Assembly (NCBI GenBank): GCA_027604665.1
Contig: JADGIZ010000456.1
Location: forward strand, 1-13,371
DNA from: Polyrhizophydium stewartii
Taxonomy: Eukaryota > Chytridiomycota > Chytridiomycetes > Rhizophydiales
Reading direction: 5' to 3'
Length of the DNA: 13,371 nucleotides
This document shows positions 4,732 to 10,201 of this stretch, piece after piece. The notes under the pieces were generated by a model. That model was not told where the DNA came from and did no database searches. It was given only the letters and a program-made list of their open reading frames with translations. A program made the position numbers and the translations under genes. How positions within the stretch are numbered: position 1 is the first letter of the stretch; each line of letters opens with the position of its first letter.

Positions 4732-6375
4732 TCAATTGTGCGAGTACACAAACAGCAGCGCGCCGAGCATGCCGCCGAGCGCACCGCCAACGTTGCCCAC
4801 AAAGACGAGATCCGAGACGACCTGGGGGCCGAGCATTGCCCAGACGTGCCACGGCTCGATGCGGTGGCGGCCCAACACGCCGCGGCCGAGGCGTCGCCAC
4901 GCATCGCGCTGCGCGCGAACCGCCGCGAGCGACATTCCCGAGCGCTGTGCCGCGGCCGCGGAGCCCGCAACGACGAGGACAAACATGCGGAGAGCCGCGA
5001 CCCAGCCCCCTGCGCCGCCAAAGACGACCTGCCGCCAGACGTGGGCGCTTCCCCTGACGCCCTGGGCGAGACTGCGACTGTGCCGCAGCCACGCGTAGAG
5101 CAGCGACCCTGCCGCGCTGAACGCGAGCGCGGCGGCCACGAGGGCGGCGAACTCGCGGTCGCCGAGCACCTGGTATGCGAGCGGGCCAAAGCGTAACAGC
5201 CCGTACATGTTCACGGCGAGGTGCACGATGGTGACGTGCATCATCTGCGCCGTCACGAGCGTGTGCTGCCCGCCGAGCCGCGCGACGCTGTTGTCCCACG
5301 AGGCGGTGAAGTTGTCGGCGAGCGCTTGCTCGAGCCAGATGCCTGCGGACCACCCCGACGCGGCGAGCGCGCGCGCGGCCTGGTACGCGGCGTACAGCGC
5401 CACATTGGATGCAACGAAGAGGTCCAGGATCGACATGCTGCGCGCCGTGTCTATCAGGTGGTGCTCGTCCAGCCACTGCGCGGCGGCGCGCGGCAGCGCC
5501 TTGACCGGCAGGCCAAAGAAGGTCCGCTGCGTGCTCCACCACGCGAGCGCGTCCGAGGCTGCGGGTGGCAGCCGTCGCGAGAGCCATCGCACGGCGGGGC
5601 CAAGCCAGCCGTCCCACAGCGTCACGCGGCCAGAGAGCGGCTGCTCGCAGGTGCGGCCCGTCCAGCTTGGCATGCACAGGCACTGGGCGCTGGGCGGCAG
5701 CAGCGTCGTCGGCACGCACACTCCTGCAAACCGCGTTCAACCAAGCCCGAGAGATCCCACGGCAAGCAGCACCCACCAGGCGTCAGCAATCGCTCGGCCG
5801 ACAAGCAGCACGGATCGGATCCATGATGTTCGGAAAGACGCCGGACGCACCGTGAACGCAGTCTGGGCACGCCGCGTGCATGTCTGCCGCCCACGACTCG
5901 GCCTCGGCCGCCCACTGCCCGATCTCGGCCGACGTCGGCACGTGGTCGAGCCACGGCGAGCGGCTGGCGTCGTACCAGTTGCCGAGCACGCCCAAGAGCC
6001 GCAGCGGCGGCATGCCGTGGCCCGAGTCGACCCGCACGACCGCAAACAGGCCGTAGTCGACGTACTGCAGCATCCCGGCTGTCGTTGCATCGGACACGCA
6101 AGTGTCAGCGGGGCCGCAGCACCCACCATCGCCGGTTGCTTGTGGAAGCGTATCGAACACCTCCACCCCTCCCCCCGGGGCGGTTGATGCTGCTCCTCAC
6201 CGATGCTCATCACAAACGCCGTGCCCCGCGAGACCAGCGACCACAGCGGGCCGCCCTCGGCGCGCGCGGCGTCCTCGAGCGCAGCGTGGAACGACGCCTC
6301 GTCGGGCTTGGTGGCGTACAGCAGCAGCACCAGCAGCGCAACCACCACGGCCGTCTTGGCCGTCGTCGTCGCCAT
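4732..6375 (-). CDS. EGF-like plus rhomboid-fold membrane protein, predicted pseudoprotease
   Basis: Three exons on the minus strand, 6375-6201, 6078-5851 and 5723-4732, give 464 residues with both introns in phase 1. Domains: signal peptide (residues 1-26, hydrophobic VVVALLVLLLY); lumenal domain of unknown family (about 27-128); EGF-like module with six Cys at 129, 132, 137, 149, 151 and 160, rebuilt only by splicing; then a rhomboid core. The core has TM1 near 232-255, the TM2 motif HVTIVHLAVNMYGLLRFGP (His297, His302, Asn306), the TM4 loop FGGAGGW and the last TM segment VGNVGGALGG. Active rhomboids use Ser in GxSG on TM4 and His on the last core helix; here these are Ala372 (GCA, 5013-5011) and Asn445 (AAC, 4794-4792). 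Loss of proteolysis is inferred. Location is probably endoplasmic reticulum or other secretory membrane. The gene diverges from the RsfS gene. Confidence 0.8.
5724..5850 (-). other. Intron 2 (127 nt) of the EGF-rhomboid gene
   Basis: Donor GTGCGT at 5850, acceptor TTTGCAG ending at 5724, with a GCTGACG branch-like motif inside. The phase 1 junction creates CPDCVHG|VCVP, which completes the six-cysteine EGF pattern; this independently supports the splice. Confidence 0.85.
6079..6200 (-). other. Intron 1 (122 nt) of the EGF-rhomboid gene
   Basis: Donor GTGAGG at 6200, acceptor CGACAG ending at 6079, with CTGAC about 28 nt before the acceptor. It is phase 1, and the TGA in the donor closes the downstream frame, so splicing is required. 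An alternative AAG acceptor 60 nt earlier is also in phase and would add about 20 residues with three Cys; the one chosen has the better branch and acceptor context. Confidence 0.6.
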
Positions 6376-6668
6376 GGTGTGTGAGAGGTCGGTGCGGTTG
6401 GATGTGAAGTGGGCGAGGGGGTATGGGTCGCTGGAAGTTTGGGAAGGATCGGATCGGGTGCTCGCACCCCAGATCCTTGGGGACGCTGTGAGGAGTGGTC
6501 GGCCTGGGTCCAGAGCACCAGCAGTGCAAGGAAGGCTCGAGTGGATTGCGTATCCGCACACGAGCCGGGGGTGCAGCCCGGCCTGCCAAAGTCCGGCTTG
6601 ACGGGGGGTGGGGGAGCCGACTTCCAAGCGGCATTCAGCCATTCGGCGCTCTTCGTCCAGCGATCGCC
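6376..6668. promoter_or_regulatory. Divergent promoter region, EGF-rhomboid and RsfS genes
   Basis: The 293 bp between two head-to-head start codons must carry both 5' UTRs and promoters. It contains an imperfect inverted repeat at 6451-6476 (arms GGATCGGGTGC and GCACCCCAGATCC, loop TC), overlapped by a second pair AAGGATC (6444-6450) / GATCCTT (6472-6478). No TATA-like box is obvious. The plus strand becomes G-rich around 6600-6616. Confidence 0.55.
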
Positions 6669-8262
6669 ATGCTCCGGTTTCTCTCGCTCGCTGCGGCCGC
6701 ACCCCGCGCTGCTGCCGTTGCAGCTGCCGCGCACGCCCGCGCGACCGGCACACACGCACTTGCCGCGGCTGCCTATCCCGTACCGAGCCGCTGCGCATGC
6801 GCACACACCCGCGCAGGCCCGCCGCAGCCCGCGCATCGCGGCGTGCTGTCGCTCTCCTTCCTCGAGCACCAGCATCCGCAGGTTATCCACCGCCGCACGC
6901 TGCAGGCCGCAACTGCGGCGCTCGCGCGCATGCGACGCCGCGCGGCTGTGGACCCAGACTCGGGGGACAGCGAGCCATCGCAAACCACGGGCCTGTCCGT
7001 GCGCGAAGCACGGACAATCGCCAGCGAGCTCGACGAGATCTCAGAGAACTTGCTGTCGCCGCTGTACGAGGCCAAGGGCAAACCGCGGGCGGGCGAGACC
7101 GGCGCCGGCGGCGCCCGCGGCGGCGACGGCAGCGACGGAGCCGCTGCCGGCAGTGCGTTCAACCCGGACGTGGATGCGGCCGCGCGGGCGGCGATCGCGG
7201 CCAAGAAGGCCGGCGGCGAGTCGCCGACCCAGGGCCGCGATCCGGGACCAAAGTCGCCCATGGAAAGGGACCCGGACACCCGCTTTGCGGCCATGGACGC
7301 CCTCGACGAGCCGCTGTCGCAGATTGCCGCCGAAAAGGCGGCTGCCGGCATGCGCGGGTCCGCCTCGCTGGCTCTCACCGAGGCCGAGCTTGCTGCGAGG
7401 CGCGCGGCCGTTGCGGATCTGTTTGACTCGCGGCACCAGTATGTTGATGCGGGCGCTGCTGCCGCGGGCGACGAAGGCGCGGACGAAGAGGCGTCTGTGC
7501 GCATCAAGCGCCGCCGCGTGCACTCGCAGAAGCCGGTTGCGGCTCGAGATGCTGCCGATGGCGGCGCGGCCGAGGACGAGTGGTTTGTCGACGAGGCGCA
7601 CAACGTGCCGCAGTCGTTCACGCGCACGTTGACCCGCGGTGCGGCTGCCGCTGCTGCGGCAGATGCCACGCTGCCGCGGTGGATGCGCGGCATTGAGACG
7701 GCCGAAAAGCGGCAGATGGGCATTGACGTCGAGGACGACACTGTGCATGTCGACGCGGGCGCTTCCGTGACGCAGATGATTCTCGACCGCACGATTGACG
7801 CCATCCGCGGCGAGCGCGGCCGCAACTTGGTTGTGATTGACGTGCGCCAAAAGTGCGACCATGCGGATTACATCGTCATTGTCGAAGGCCGGTCGTCCAA
7901 GCAGATCCATTCCATGATCGACGCCGTGCGACGAAGTGTGCGTTTCTGCTTTGCAATGTCCCTGCGCAATTTGGTATCCGGTGTGCTGACTGGGTGCGAT
8001 GGCGATGGTGGCGGTGTTGGTGGTGCGTCTGCAGGTCCGCCACGTGTTGCCCCGCGACACTTCGCTGCCAGACAACCTTGCGATCCAGGGCGAGGACAGC
8101 GAGGACTGGAAGTTGCTCGATCTCGGCGGCGTGATGGTCAACTGCTTCACGGCGGATGCGCGCGCATTCTATGACCTCGAGGAGCTGTGGATCAACATGG
8201 ACCCGTCGCGGCTCAACGTGGACTTTGCGATGGAGCCCGACGAGCTGCGCGACAGTCTGTGA
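6669..8262 (+). CDS. MALSU1: RsfS-domain mitochondrial ribosome-silencing factor, MALSU1-like
   Basis: Two exons, 6669-7937 and 8035-8262, give 498 residues; the start is the first in-frame ATG. RsfS/MALSU1/Atp25-N proteins bind uL14 of the large ribosomal subunit and block premature subunit joining; eukaryotic members act in mitochondria or chloroplasts. The domain lies at about residues 367-480: VVIDVRQKCDHADYIVIVEG, then across the intron IQGEDSEDWKLLDLGGVMVN and YDLEELW (469-475), which match the family's aDy-fvi, EG-dW-llD and YdLE-lW signatures. The N-terminus (MLRFLSLAAAAPRAAA, Arg/Ala-rich, almost no acidic residues for some 90 residues) looks like a mitochondrial presequence. Between the two lies a 250-residue Ala/Asp/Glu-rich linker with a basic patch (IKRRRVHSQK). 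Typical relatives are far shorter. There is no Atp25 M domain, so MALSU1-like fits better than Atp25. Confidence 0.88.
7938..8034 (+). other. Intron (97 nt) inside the RsfS domain
   Basis: Donor GTGCGT, acceptor GTCTGCAG, CTGAC at about 7986-7990, phase 0. It joins MIDAVRRS to VRHVLPRDTSLPDNL and so links the two halves of the RsfS domain, which lie in different frames. Confidence 0.88.
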
Positions 8263-8391
8263 ATGAAGTTGGTTTCTGGGAACGAATCCGATGTTTTGCC
8301 CAGCAACGCGCGAGTCGCCACCACGGGTCCCCCGGCCTGCGTATCGGTCAAACTCGCTCCCGCCGCTCGCTGCTCGCTTCCCGCCACTCGC
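8263..8391 (+). other. Very short spacer between RsfS and deaminase genes
   Basis: Only 129 bp separate the RsfS stop (8260-8262) from the ATG chosen for the deaminase. An in-frame ATG lies directly after the stop (TGA ATG, 8260-8265) and would add 43 residues with no recognisable motif. The 8392 start is preferred because it leaves room for UTRs, but the sequence does not settle it. Confidence 0.5.
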
Positions 8392-10201
8392 ATGCACCCC
8401 GGCGCGCTCGGCGTGCCGCCGACGGCCCTCGCCGACGCCTCGCTGCTCGTCTGCAACAGCGCAACCCGCATCCGCTCGCGCGACGTCTTCATGCTCATGG
8501 CGCTGTGGATGGAGCGGCACCCGGGCCGCACGCCGGCCGCCGCCACGCCCGGTGCGCGCGGCGCCGCGCCGAGCCTTGGGACGCCGCAGTCCGTGCGGCC
8601 GACGGGCTGCGTGCTCGTCGACCCGCGCGACCGCGTCGTGGCACTCGAGAGCACGGGCGAGTCGCACGCCATCGTGCGGGCCATCCTGCGCTGCCCGCAC
8701 GACCCGCGCGGCTGCGACATGTGGGTCCTCTCGCGGCCCCTCGACGCCCGTGTCCGCGATGCTGCCAGCGGCTCACCAGGCCGCCTTACCATGCATCCCG
8801 CCGTGTGTGCTGCTGCGTCGCAGATACGTCTCACGCTTCCCGTGCGCCATGTGCGCCAAGTTCATGGTCCAGGCAGGCATCCGCAAGATCTACTACTTCC
8901 CGGCGCAGGAGTGGGAGATGGACTGGGTCGCCCACTGCGCGCGGCTGACGGACGCCGACGGCGCCGCATCGCCAGGCACCGCCGCCGGAGGGGGCAGCAG
9001 CAGCAGCGCCACGACAGACACGCCGCCGCCCGCGATGCCTCGCCCGCTTGCGGCACCGTCGTCATCGCACCGCGGCGCCAAGAGGCCGAGCGACGCATCT
9101 GCATCGGCGCCCTCGCCGTCCAAGCCCCGCGCGGCGTCGCCCGACCGCGCCGGCTCGCCGCCGCCGCCGCCGCACCAGCACGCCGCCAAGCGCCTGCGCA
9201 AGCCGTCGACGTTTGCCGTCATGGTCGCCGAGAAGCGCGAGTTCAATATCCGCTCGGTGCAGCGGCTCATCAGCAACAACCCCATCGGCATGTCGCTGTA
9301 CATCCCGCAGTGGGACCACTCGGGTCTAGACGAGGACGACGACAAAGACGATGGCGGTGATGCCACCGTGGCCACGTCGCATCTCAGCGGCGGCGGTGGT
9401 GGTAGCTACTCGGGCGATGTCGAGATCTCGGACGCGGATGAGAATGGCGGTGTGGATGCGACCGGCGCAGCGGCAGAGCGGCTTGACTGGGCGCTAGACA
9501 TGTCGATCGCCTCGACGCCGGCGCTGTCGATGCGGTGGGCGACGATTGTGGCCAAGTTCCGGCGCACGATCCGCGCGCTGGAGCTACTGCACGGACGGTA
9601 CACGCACGCCACGATCCGGCGCAGCGTTGCCGGACCGCACTCTGCGGCTGCCGTTGCGGCGGTGGCGGCAGGCGGCGCACACACCAACCACGATCGGTCG
9701 AGCAGCGAGACCATGACCGACGCGTACCGCGCTGCGCTTGTCCGCCACGCCATGGTGCTCGCCCACATCGCCGCCAAGCGCACCGACGACCCCAAAGTCG
9801 GCGTTGGCTCGGTGCTTGTTGATCCGTGCGGGCGGTACGACTCGGTCGGGTGGAACGGATACCCGAAGAAGGCCGCGCACCTCGACTATCCGCAGGCCGG
9901 CGCCGACGACTCTGTCGAGGACGAGGAGCTCAAGTACGACTACATCCTGCATGCCGAGCAGAACACGCTGCTGTGGCGCAACCCGCCCGGCGGCCGGCTT
10001 GCCCCTGGCGCCATGATCGTGTCGACCAAGATGCCGTGCGACGAGTGCTCGCCGGTCATGGCCGACTGCGGCGTCTCGTGCGTCGTGTCCGTCCCGCAGG
10101 CGGCCAAGTCGATCCATGATCCGGCCAGGCTGCGCGGGCTGACGTACGACAAGCTTGCGGCGCTGATCCCGGACCGGTGGGTGTTCGAGGTTGCTGTGTG
10201 A
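8392..10201 (+). CDS. CDADC1: CDADC1-like protein with two cytidine/dCMP deaminase domains
   Basis: Two exons, 8392-8720 and 8824-10201, give 568 residues. The order matches animal CDADC1: an N-terminal helix (DVFMLMALWMERHP), deaminase domain 1, linker, deaminase domain 2. Domain 1 has His92 in SHAIVRA where active enzymes have HAE, plus PCAMC (Cys117, Cys120). Zinc ligands are therefore kept but the proton-shuttling Glu is Ile94. Animal CDADC1 also lacks that Glu. Domain 2 is complete: HAEQN (His486, Glu488) and PCDEC (Cys515, Cys518). Family knowledge points to deamination of cytosine deoxynucleotides (dCTP/dCMP to uracil forms) feeding thymidylate supply; the exact substrate is not visible. 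The linker has Ser/Pro/Ala/Asp-rich inserts and a likely nuclear signal KRLRK (about 232-236). The next gene downstream is convergent. Confidence 0.88.
8721..8823 (+). other. Intron (103 nt) in deaminase domain 1
   Basis: Donor GTGGGT, acceptor TCGCAG, phase 2. The junction rebuilds GCDIYVSRFPCAMC, which lines up with the conserved CDLYFSRKPC-type segment of CDADC1. Reading through from a frame-2 start at 8291 would lose the N-terminal helix and His92, so splicing is favoured. Confidence 0.88.

Follow-up and report, generated by a model that had tools for sequence, protein, structure and literature searches.

A rhomboid-family protein with probably altered catalytic positions and an EGF-like module in the chytrid Polyrhizophydium stewartii

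Introduction

In animals and yeasts, inactive rhomboids take part in signalling and in the quality control of proteins. The iRhoms, Derlins and Dsc2 handle membrane clients without cleaving them (PMC7618786, PMC12615303, PMC11513148), and yeast Dfm1 needs a WR motif for its membrane substrates (PMC12615303). Fungal rhomboids have been described as Pcp1/Rbd1, Rbd2 and ROM-1 types, with likely inactive homologues set aside (PMC5567314), and as RhoA, RhoD and PARL types (PMC8778642). Among the titles and beginnings of abstracts listed in our literature search, which covers mostly open-access work, we found no EGF-linked or chytrid rhomboid pseudoprotease. Here we analyze a gene on the minus strand of a 13,371-nucleotide stretch of Polyrhizophydium stewartii DNA (contig JADGIZ010000456.1; hereafter the window), whose product appears to be a rhomboid-family membrane protein that has lost proteolysis and that carries an epidermal growth factor (EGF)-like module ahead of its rhomboid core.

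Batrachochytrium is the amphibian-killing chytrid, and P. stewartii is its non-pathogenic relative. A 2025 paper describes P. stewartii as a saprophyte that is related to Batrachochytrium dendrobatidis and is no pathogen (PMC12204190). The gene had been noted in an original prediction, made from the letters of the window alone, as an EGF-linked rhomboid pseudoprotease of a probable fungus; P. stewartii indeed belongs to the Chytridiomycota (Rhizophydiales).

Results

The protein contains a rhomboid core, in line with the original prediction, and its domain lies in the last of three exons:

4750..5262, minus strand: Rhomboid domain, residues 289-459 (Pfam, 30.9 bits; genome search, 30.7 bits)

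The match to the Pfam Rhomboid family (PF01694; E 3.5e-7) is well above the cut-off of 22.6 bits. Against a profile built from 80 bacterial rhomboids the protein scored 32.6 bits, far higher than the top-scoring one among 200 shuffled versions of residues 201-464 run with the same profile (5.7 bits, or 7.3 bits for a single stretch). The motifs quoted in the prediction are all present, starting at residues 297, 369 (FGGAGGW) and 443 (VGNVGGALGG).

The likeness is weaker in TM4-6. The Rhomboid score was 36 bits for residues 280-358, 37.4 bits for residues 280-400 and 33.8 bits for residues 280-464, and residues 348-464 by themselves gave no Rhomboid match in Pfam. Furthermore, the WR motif of the first loop (L1) is lost, loops L3 and L4 are longer and transmembrane helix (TM) 5 is short. 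A structure prediction from the single sequence was of no use (predicted local distance difference test, pLDDT, 41.5), and an alignment-guided model had some confidence for TM1-3 and TM6 only, with a last helix at residues 439-462. A Foldseek search with the guided model found nothing at E <= 0.001; GlpG was the best match, at E 0.16. VIA-align re-scored 119 of the 120 Foldseek chains; the absence of Derlin structures from the chains listed excludes nothing. A sequence search of the PDB gave only chance-level matches, and a profile search with an alignment of the protein (A2) mainly mirrors the 39 other rows of that alignment and was not used as evidence. Thus, the claim that the fold is otherwise retained is only partly true: the model carries some confidence in TM1-3 and TM6, and the TM2 residues are present, but TM4-6 are, as judged from these comparisons, weakly conserved, which counts against our view of an intact rhomboid protein.

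The positions that bear on catalysis are as follows:

5209..5238, minus strand: TM2 motif H297-x4-H302-x3-N306, kept (invariant in 40 of 40 rows of A2)
5008..5010, minus strand: Gly373 (GGG), best equivalent of the catalytic serine (Pfam mapping, hhalign; rival Arg358 at 5053-5055)
4792..4794, minus strand: Asn445 (AAC), best equivalent of the catalytic histidine (Pfam mapping, global hhalign, MAFFT; rival His427)

We take His302 and Asn306 to be counterparts, in role, of the GlpG oxyanion residues. In contrast to an active S54 protease, the catalytic serine (GxSG in TM4) is missing. We calibrated the Pfam position scale on an active-type rhomboid, P0004, in which the serine is position 72 and the histidine position 126. 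Residues 387 and 388 mapped to positions 86 and 87, and residue 459 to position 140; therefore Gly373 stands at the serine and Asn445 at the histidine, provided that there is no gap between. Global hhalign placed G371-A372-G373-G374 opposite GASG and N445 opposite the histidine. In local hhalign, too, GAGG (371-374) lay opposite GASG when the cut-off was loose.

Several results weigh against these assignments. Strict local hhalign ended at residue 330, and when the Pfam search was given a piece ending at residue 376, the match ended at residue 361 (profile position 67). MAFFT placed GVRG (356-359) opposite GASG, so that Arg358 faces the serine, with N445 still opposite the histidine. With the 80-rhomboid profile, the HMMER match ended at residue 357 and residues 447-461 were paired with TM4 at -2.2 bits. 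A forward calculation with this profile gave Arg358 0.786 and Gly373 0.022 in the serine column, and His427 0.360 and Asn445 0.180 in the histidine column. In a looser profile, for which most of the weight fell on no residue in either column, Arg358 again exceeded Gly373 (0.336 vs. 0.017), and Asn445 exceeded His427 (0.108 vs. 0.030). Serines at the catalytic column had a combined weight below 0.05.

We nevertheless prefer Gly373 with Asn445, because GAGG and GNVGG are rightly placed in hydrophobic stretches, whereas a polar stretch comes after Arg358. Thus, the catalytic serine position is most likely Gly373 (GASG to GAGG), and a change of the histidine to Asn445 is favoured, less certainly than the loss of the serine. 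The original assignment of the serine to Ala372 has to be corrected: Pfam and hhalign place Gly373 there, MAFFT and the 80-rhomboid profile place Arg358, and Ala372 was outside the top seven residues for the serine column in both profiles. The assignment of the histidine to Asn445 agrees with Pfam, global hhalign, MAFFT and the looser profile, but not with the 80-rhomboid profile. These comparisons indicate that the protein has no catalytic dyad, and the central claim of the prediction, that both catalytic residues are changed, is sustained to the extent that the protein is very probably without proteolytic activity. All 80 of 80 bacterial loci carried GxSG together with AHxGG, but this tally is biased, as one of the two patterns used for fetching contains the histidine motif, and we did not use it to argue rarity.

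We compared the protein with the described rhomboid classes. The iRhoms (RHBDF1/RHBDF2) have GPx in place of GxS and a cysteine-rich homology domain of about 230 amino acids between TM1 and TM2, whereas the chytrid protein has FGGAGGW, or alternatively GVRG, and an L1 of about 40 amino acids with no cysteine. Its cysteines precede TM1, unlike those of iRhom, and no long cytosolic tail was recognised; moreover, conservation of iRhoms has been described for metazoans (PMC6451368), whereas this protein is fungal. To the active rhomboids (GlpG and the bacterial P0003 and P0004) there is likeness in TM2-3 and, by hhalign, also in TM1, and the TM2 His/His/Asn residues and the TM6 GG are shared; the fold of the guided model, usable for TM1-3 and TM6 only, would be a further likeness. 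Unlike these enzymes, the protein has no serine at the site, Asn445 for the histidine, no WR motif, longer L3 and L4, a short TM5 and an added EGF-like module. Derlins and Dsc2/UBAC2, pseudoproteases of quality control, are non-cutting rhomboid-like membrane proteins, a plausible mode of working for this one. The protein matches PF01694, and neither PF04511 (Derlin) nor PF08551 (DUF1751; TMEM115) is among its listed Pfam matches, from which HMMER drops most above about E 0.1. As to the Dsc2/UBAC2/RHBDD3 type, no UBA match is listed, and the chain ends at residue 464, two residues past the last modelled helix. By the features tested, then, the protein would be no iRhom, Derlin, TMEM115 or UBA-type pseudoprotease, and the lack of GPx, of an L1 cysteine and of a PF04511 match agrees with the earlier view that it is a case separate from animal iRhoms and derlins.

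The gene has three exons on the minus strand (6375-6201, 6078-5851 and 5723-4732) and two introns with GT-AG borders, 122 and 127 bases long. The exons proposed for 4732..6375 are borne out by translation, since the spliced product of 464 amino acids is identical to a public P. stewartii protein, P0001 (HK105_208605). Its parts are:

6201..6375, minus strand: exon 1, with the start codon and the N-terminal hydrophobic helix (product as P0001; third-position GC, GC3, of 0.96 for residues 1-128)
6313-6372, minus strand: N-terminal helix, residues 2-21, a signal peptide or signal anchor (top hydrophobic segment of the protein)
6079..6200, minus strand: intron 1 (GTGAGG...ACAG; splice sites, codon score negative in all 3 frames)
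5851..6078, minus strand: exon 2, an N-terminal region with no recognised domain, and EGF-like cysteines C129 and C132 (spliced translation; residues 1-128 with no Pfam match)
5724..5850, minus strand: intron 2 (GTGCGT...TGCAG), between EGF-like cysteines 2 and 3 (splice sites, codon score negative in all 3 frames)
4732..5723, minus strand: exon 3, with the last 4 EGF-like cysteines, linker, rhomboid core and stop codon (spliced translation, Pfam)
5647..5869, minus strand, interrupted by the intron at 5724-5850: EGF-like module, residues 129-160 (EGF_2, 20.7 bits; cysteine spacing)

A second public model of this gene, P0002 (HK105_005866), has 409 amino acids and lacks the EGF-coding stretch. 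Its intron 2 has the same donor region as that of P0001 and an acceptor farther away, so that the two models disagree in the window at about 5555-5851. Codon usage helps to decide between them: residues 135-190, which P0002 skips, scored +0.234 bits per codon (GC3 0.86), and the other two frames were negative. Over the whole gene GC3 is 0.90 and the coding score is positive for each part scored, including residues 346-464 (+0.355 bits per codon). This gene-like codon usage supports the statement in the prediction that the changes are not simple decay.

The protein has six cysteines, and every one falls inside the module (C129, 132, 137, 149, 151 and 160), with EGF spacing. This pattern appeared in 0 of 200,000 shuffles, although it was defined after the sequence had been seen. 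EGF_2 in Pfam reached 16 bits in the whole protein and 20.7 bits in a 90-amino-acid piece, below the cut-off of 22.1; we therefore call the module EGF-like, a name that derives from the spacing, and in this form the proposed joining of an EGF-like module to a rhomboid stands. The guided model gave the module no confident structure. Pfam gave no match to residues 1-128, even with E values as high as 10, and NCBIfam gave nothing near any cut-off. A suspected likeness of the N-terminal region to DUF4359 found no confirmation.

We considered membrane topology using approximate hydrophobicity values and loop limits set by hand. Loops L2 and L4 together hold 9 lysines and arginines, compared to 5 in L1 and L3, and the sole N-glycosylation sequon, at Asn272, is in L1. 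By the positive-inside rule, the stretch ahead of TM1 and the EGF-like module in it would therefore lie in the cytosol, and the Asn272 sequon likewise points to a cytosolic module. A lumenal EGF-like module is thus in conflict with the charge distribution predicted for the core, which counts against our reading of the protein. This leaves three options: an inverted core (1+6), a helix that escaped our analysis, or a module that is not disulfide-bonded.

Searches for relatives returned little beyond the gene itself. Among the 7,997 candidates that shared most words with the whole protein, a set in which a distant orthologue may be missed, we found two matches, P0001 and P0002. Under the same limit, a search with residues 205-464 (E values as high as 10) gave these two and weak matches to P0003 and P0004, both proteins with Rhomboid domains, and no orthologue; the candidates were perhaps filled by Ala-rich words, and an orthologue, for example in Batrachochytrium, could escape. 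Residues 276-350, with the same E limit of 10, matched only P0001 and P0002 of 1,544 candidates, and a scan of viral contigs gave nothing.

In the P. stewartii assembly, which has 12.86 Mb in 690 contigs and is maybe incomplete, there are 4 rhomboid matches over the cut-off, and the other 3 keep GASG and the TM6 histidine. No second copy of the gene was found in it. Derlin matches lie on two other contigs, and TMEM115 (PF08551) had no match in the assembly at E 0.001. On a further contig (G000:C417; L002 1-2900, minus strand), we noted a tandem pair of rhomboid-like coding stretches with nearly identical N-terminal leaders; the stretch at L002 1-420 has NASG for the usual GASG, keeps ASHLGG and scored 5.9 bits with the 80-rhomboid profile. 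EGF_2 has 1 match over the cut-off in the assembly, on a different contig from our gene. At L013 (G000:C658; 1357-1877, minus strand), EGF_2 (23.1 bits; cut-off 22.1) adjoins CUB (25.6 bits; cut-off 21.4), with a kelch-like stretch, judged by eye, nearby; to us this CUB, EGF_2 and kelch-like order is reminiscent of attractin. In the window itself, 6492-8171 (plus strand), divergent from the rhomboid gene, carries a long open frame whose later part matches the RsfS/Iojap family (35 bits), and 8267-10198 (plus strand) has a cytidine/deoxycytidylate deaminase family match (56.9 bits) in two stretches.

Discussion

The explanation that we put first, with about even confidence, is that the gene encodes an intact rhomboid-family membrane protein that has lost proteolysis and that most likely acts in the secretory pathway, where it would bind membrane proteins without cutting them. 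The gene is intact and its codon usage gene-like; the loss of the serine and, probably, of the histidine in such a gene fits a pseudoprotease, most likely a lineage-specific one that binds membrane clients. We infer client binding without cutting because iRhoms, Derlins and Dsc2 work so; the rhomboid core would grip the transmembrane helix of a client in the manner of iRhoms and Derlins, and the EGF-like module would give an extra contact on the lumenal or outer side. The location and topology implied here, and a role in trafficking or the endoplasmic reticulum (ER), are likewise conjectural. The simplest version of client binding is at odds with the missing WR motif, which Dfm1 requires. Within this explanation, it is unlikely that the module is lumenal and the core inverted (1+6, counting the N-terminal helix as the additional one), with the side of the former active site facing the cytosol. 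The PARL core is inverted, and the N-terminal helix ranks first among the membrane segments of the protein; both count in favour of such a form. Forms of the 1+6 type occur in the rhomboid family (PMC12615303). This arrangement, however, would leave eight lysines and arginines of L4 in the lumen and the only sequon in the cytosol.

The alternatives differ mainly in what they make of the module, the active site and the state of the gene. If the true transcript skips the module, as the 409-residue model does, the pseudoprotease would remain and its EGF-like part would not; the more distant acceptor of P0002, the positive-inside conflict with a lumenal module ahead of a canonical core and the EGF_2 score all speak for this, but the coding character of residues 135-190, where shifted frames and introns score negative, and the placing of six of six cysteines in EGF spacing by the exon joining of P0001 make it distinctly unlikely. 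That the gene is in decay, with catalysis, the WR motif and TM5 going and function gone, is quite unlikely: several conserved sites are altered, TM4-6 are weak, no orthologue was found and the gene is single-copy in the assembly, but the frame is open, the splice sites are usable, codon usage is gene-like in each scored part, and the TM2 active-site residues and TM6 glycines are kept. Finally, the protein might still cut by a displaced dyad of Ser360 or Ser352 with His427, given the preference of the 80-rhomboid profile for His427 and its small weight for both serines. We consider this very improbable, as Ser352 and Ser360 each had at most 0.023 in both profiles, the looser profile prefers Asn445, Pfam, global hhalign and MAFFT all give residue 445, and the GG that follows the TM6 histidine is present behind Asn445 and absent behind His427.

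The original finding thus stands with one correction, Gly373 in place of Ala372, and three reservations, concerning the weak TM4-6, the histidine and the topology. The weight of the finding is limited by its coming, so far, from one genome of one species with no orthologue found, and on sequence comparison the protein appears to belong, as an unusual case, to the known class of dead proteases. A bolder reading, which we regard as doubtful, is a fungal pseudoprotease class apart from iRhoms, with both catalytic residues lost and with its own EGF-like arm for binding clients or ligands, a separate invention of the iRhom principle on an early fungal branch. If true, it would mean that the rhomboid scaffold became a binding protein more than once, here in a new domain setting.
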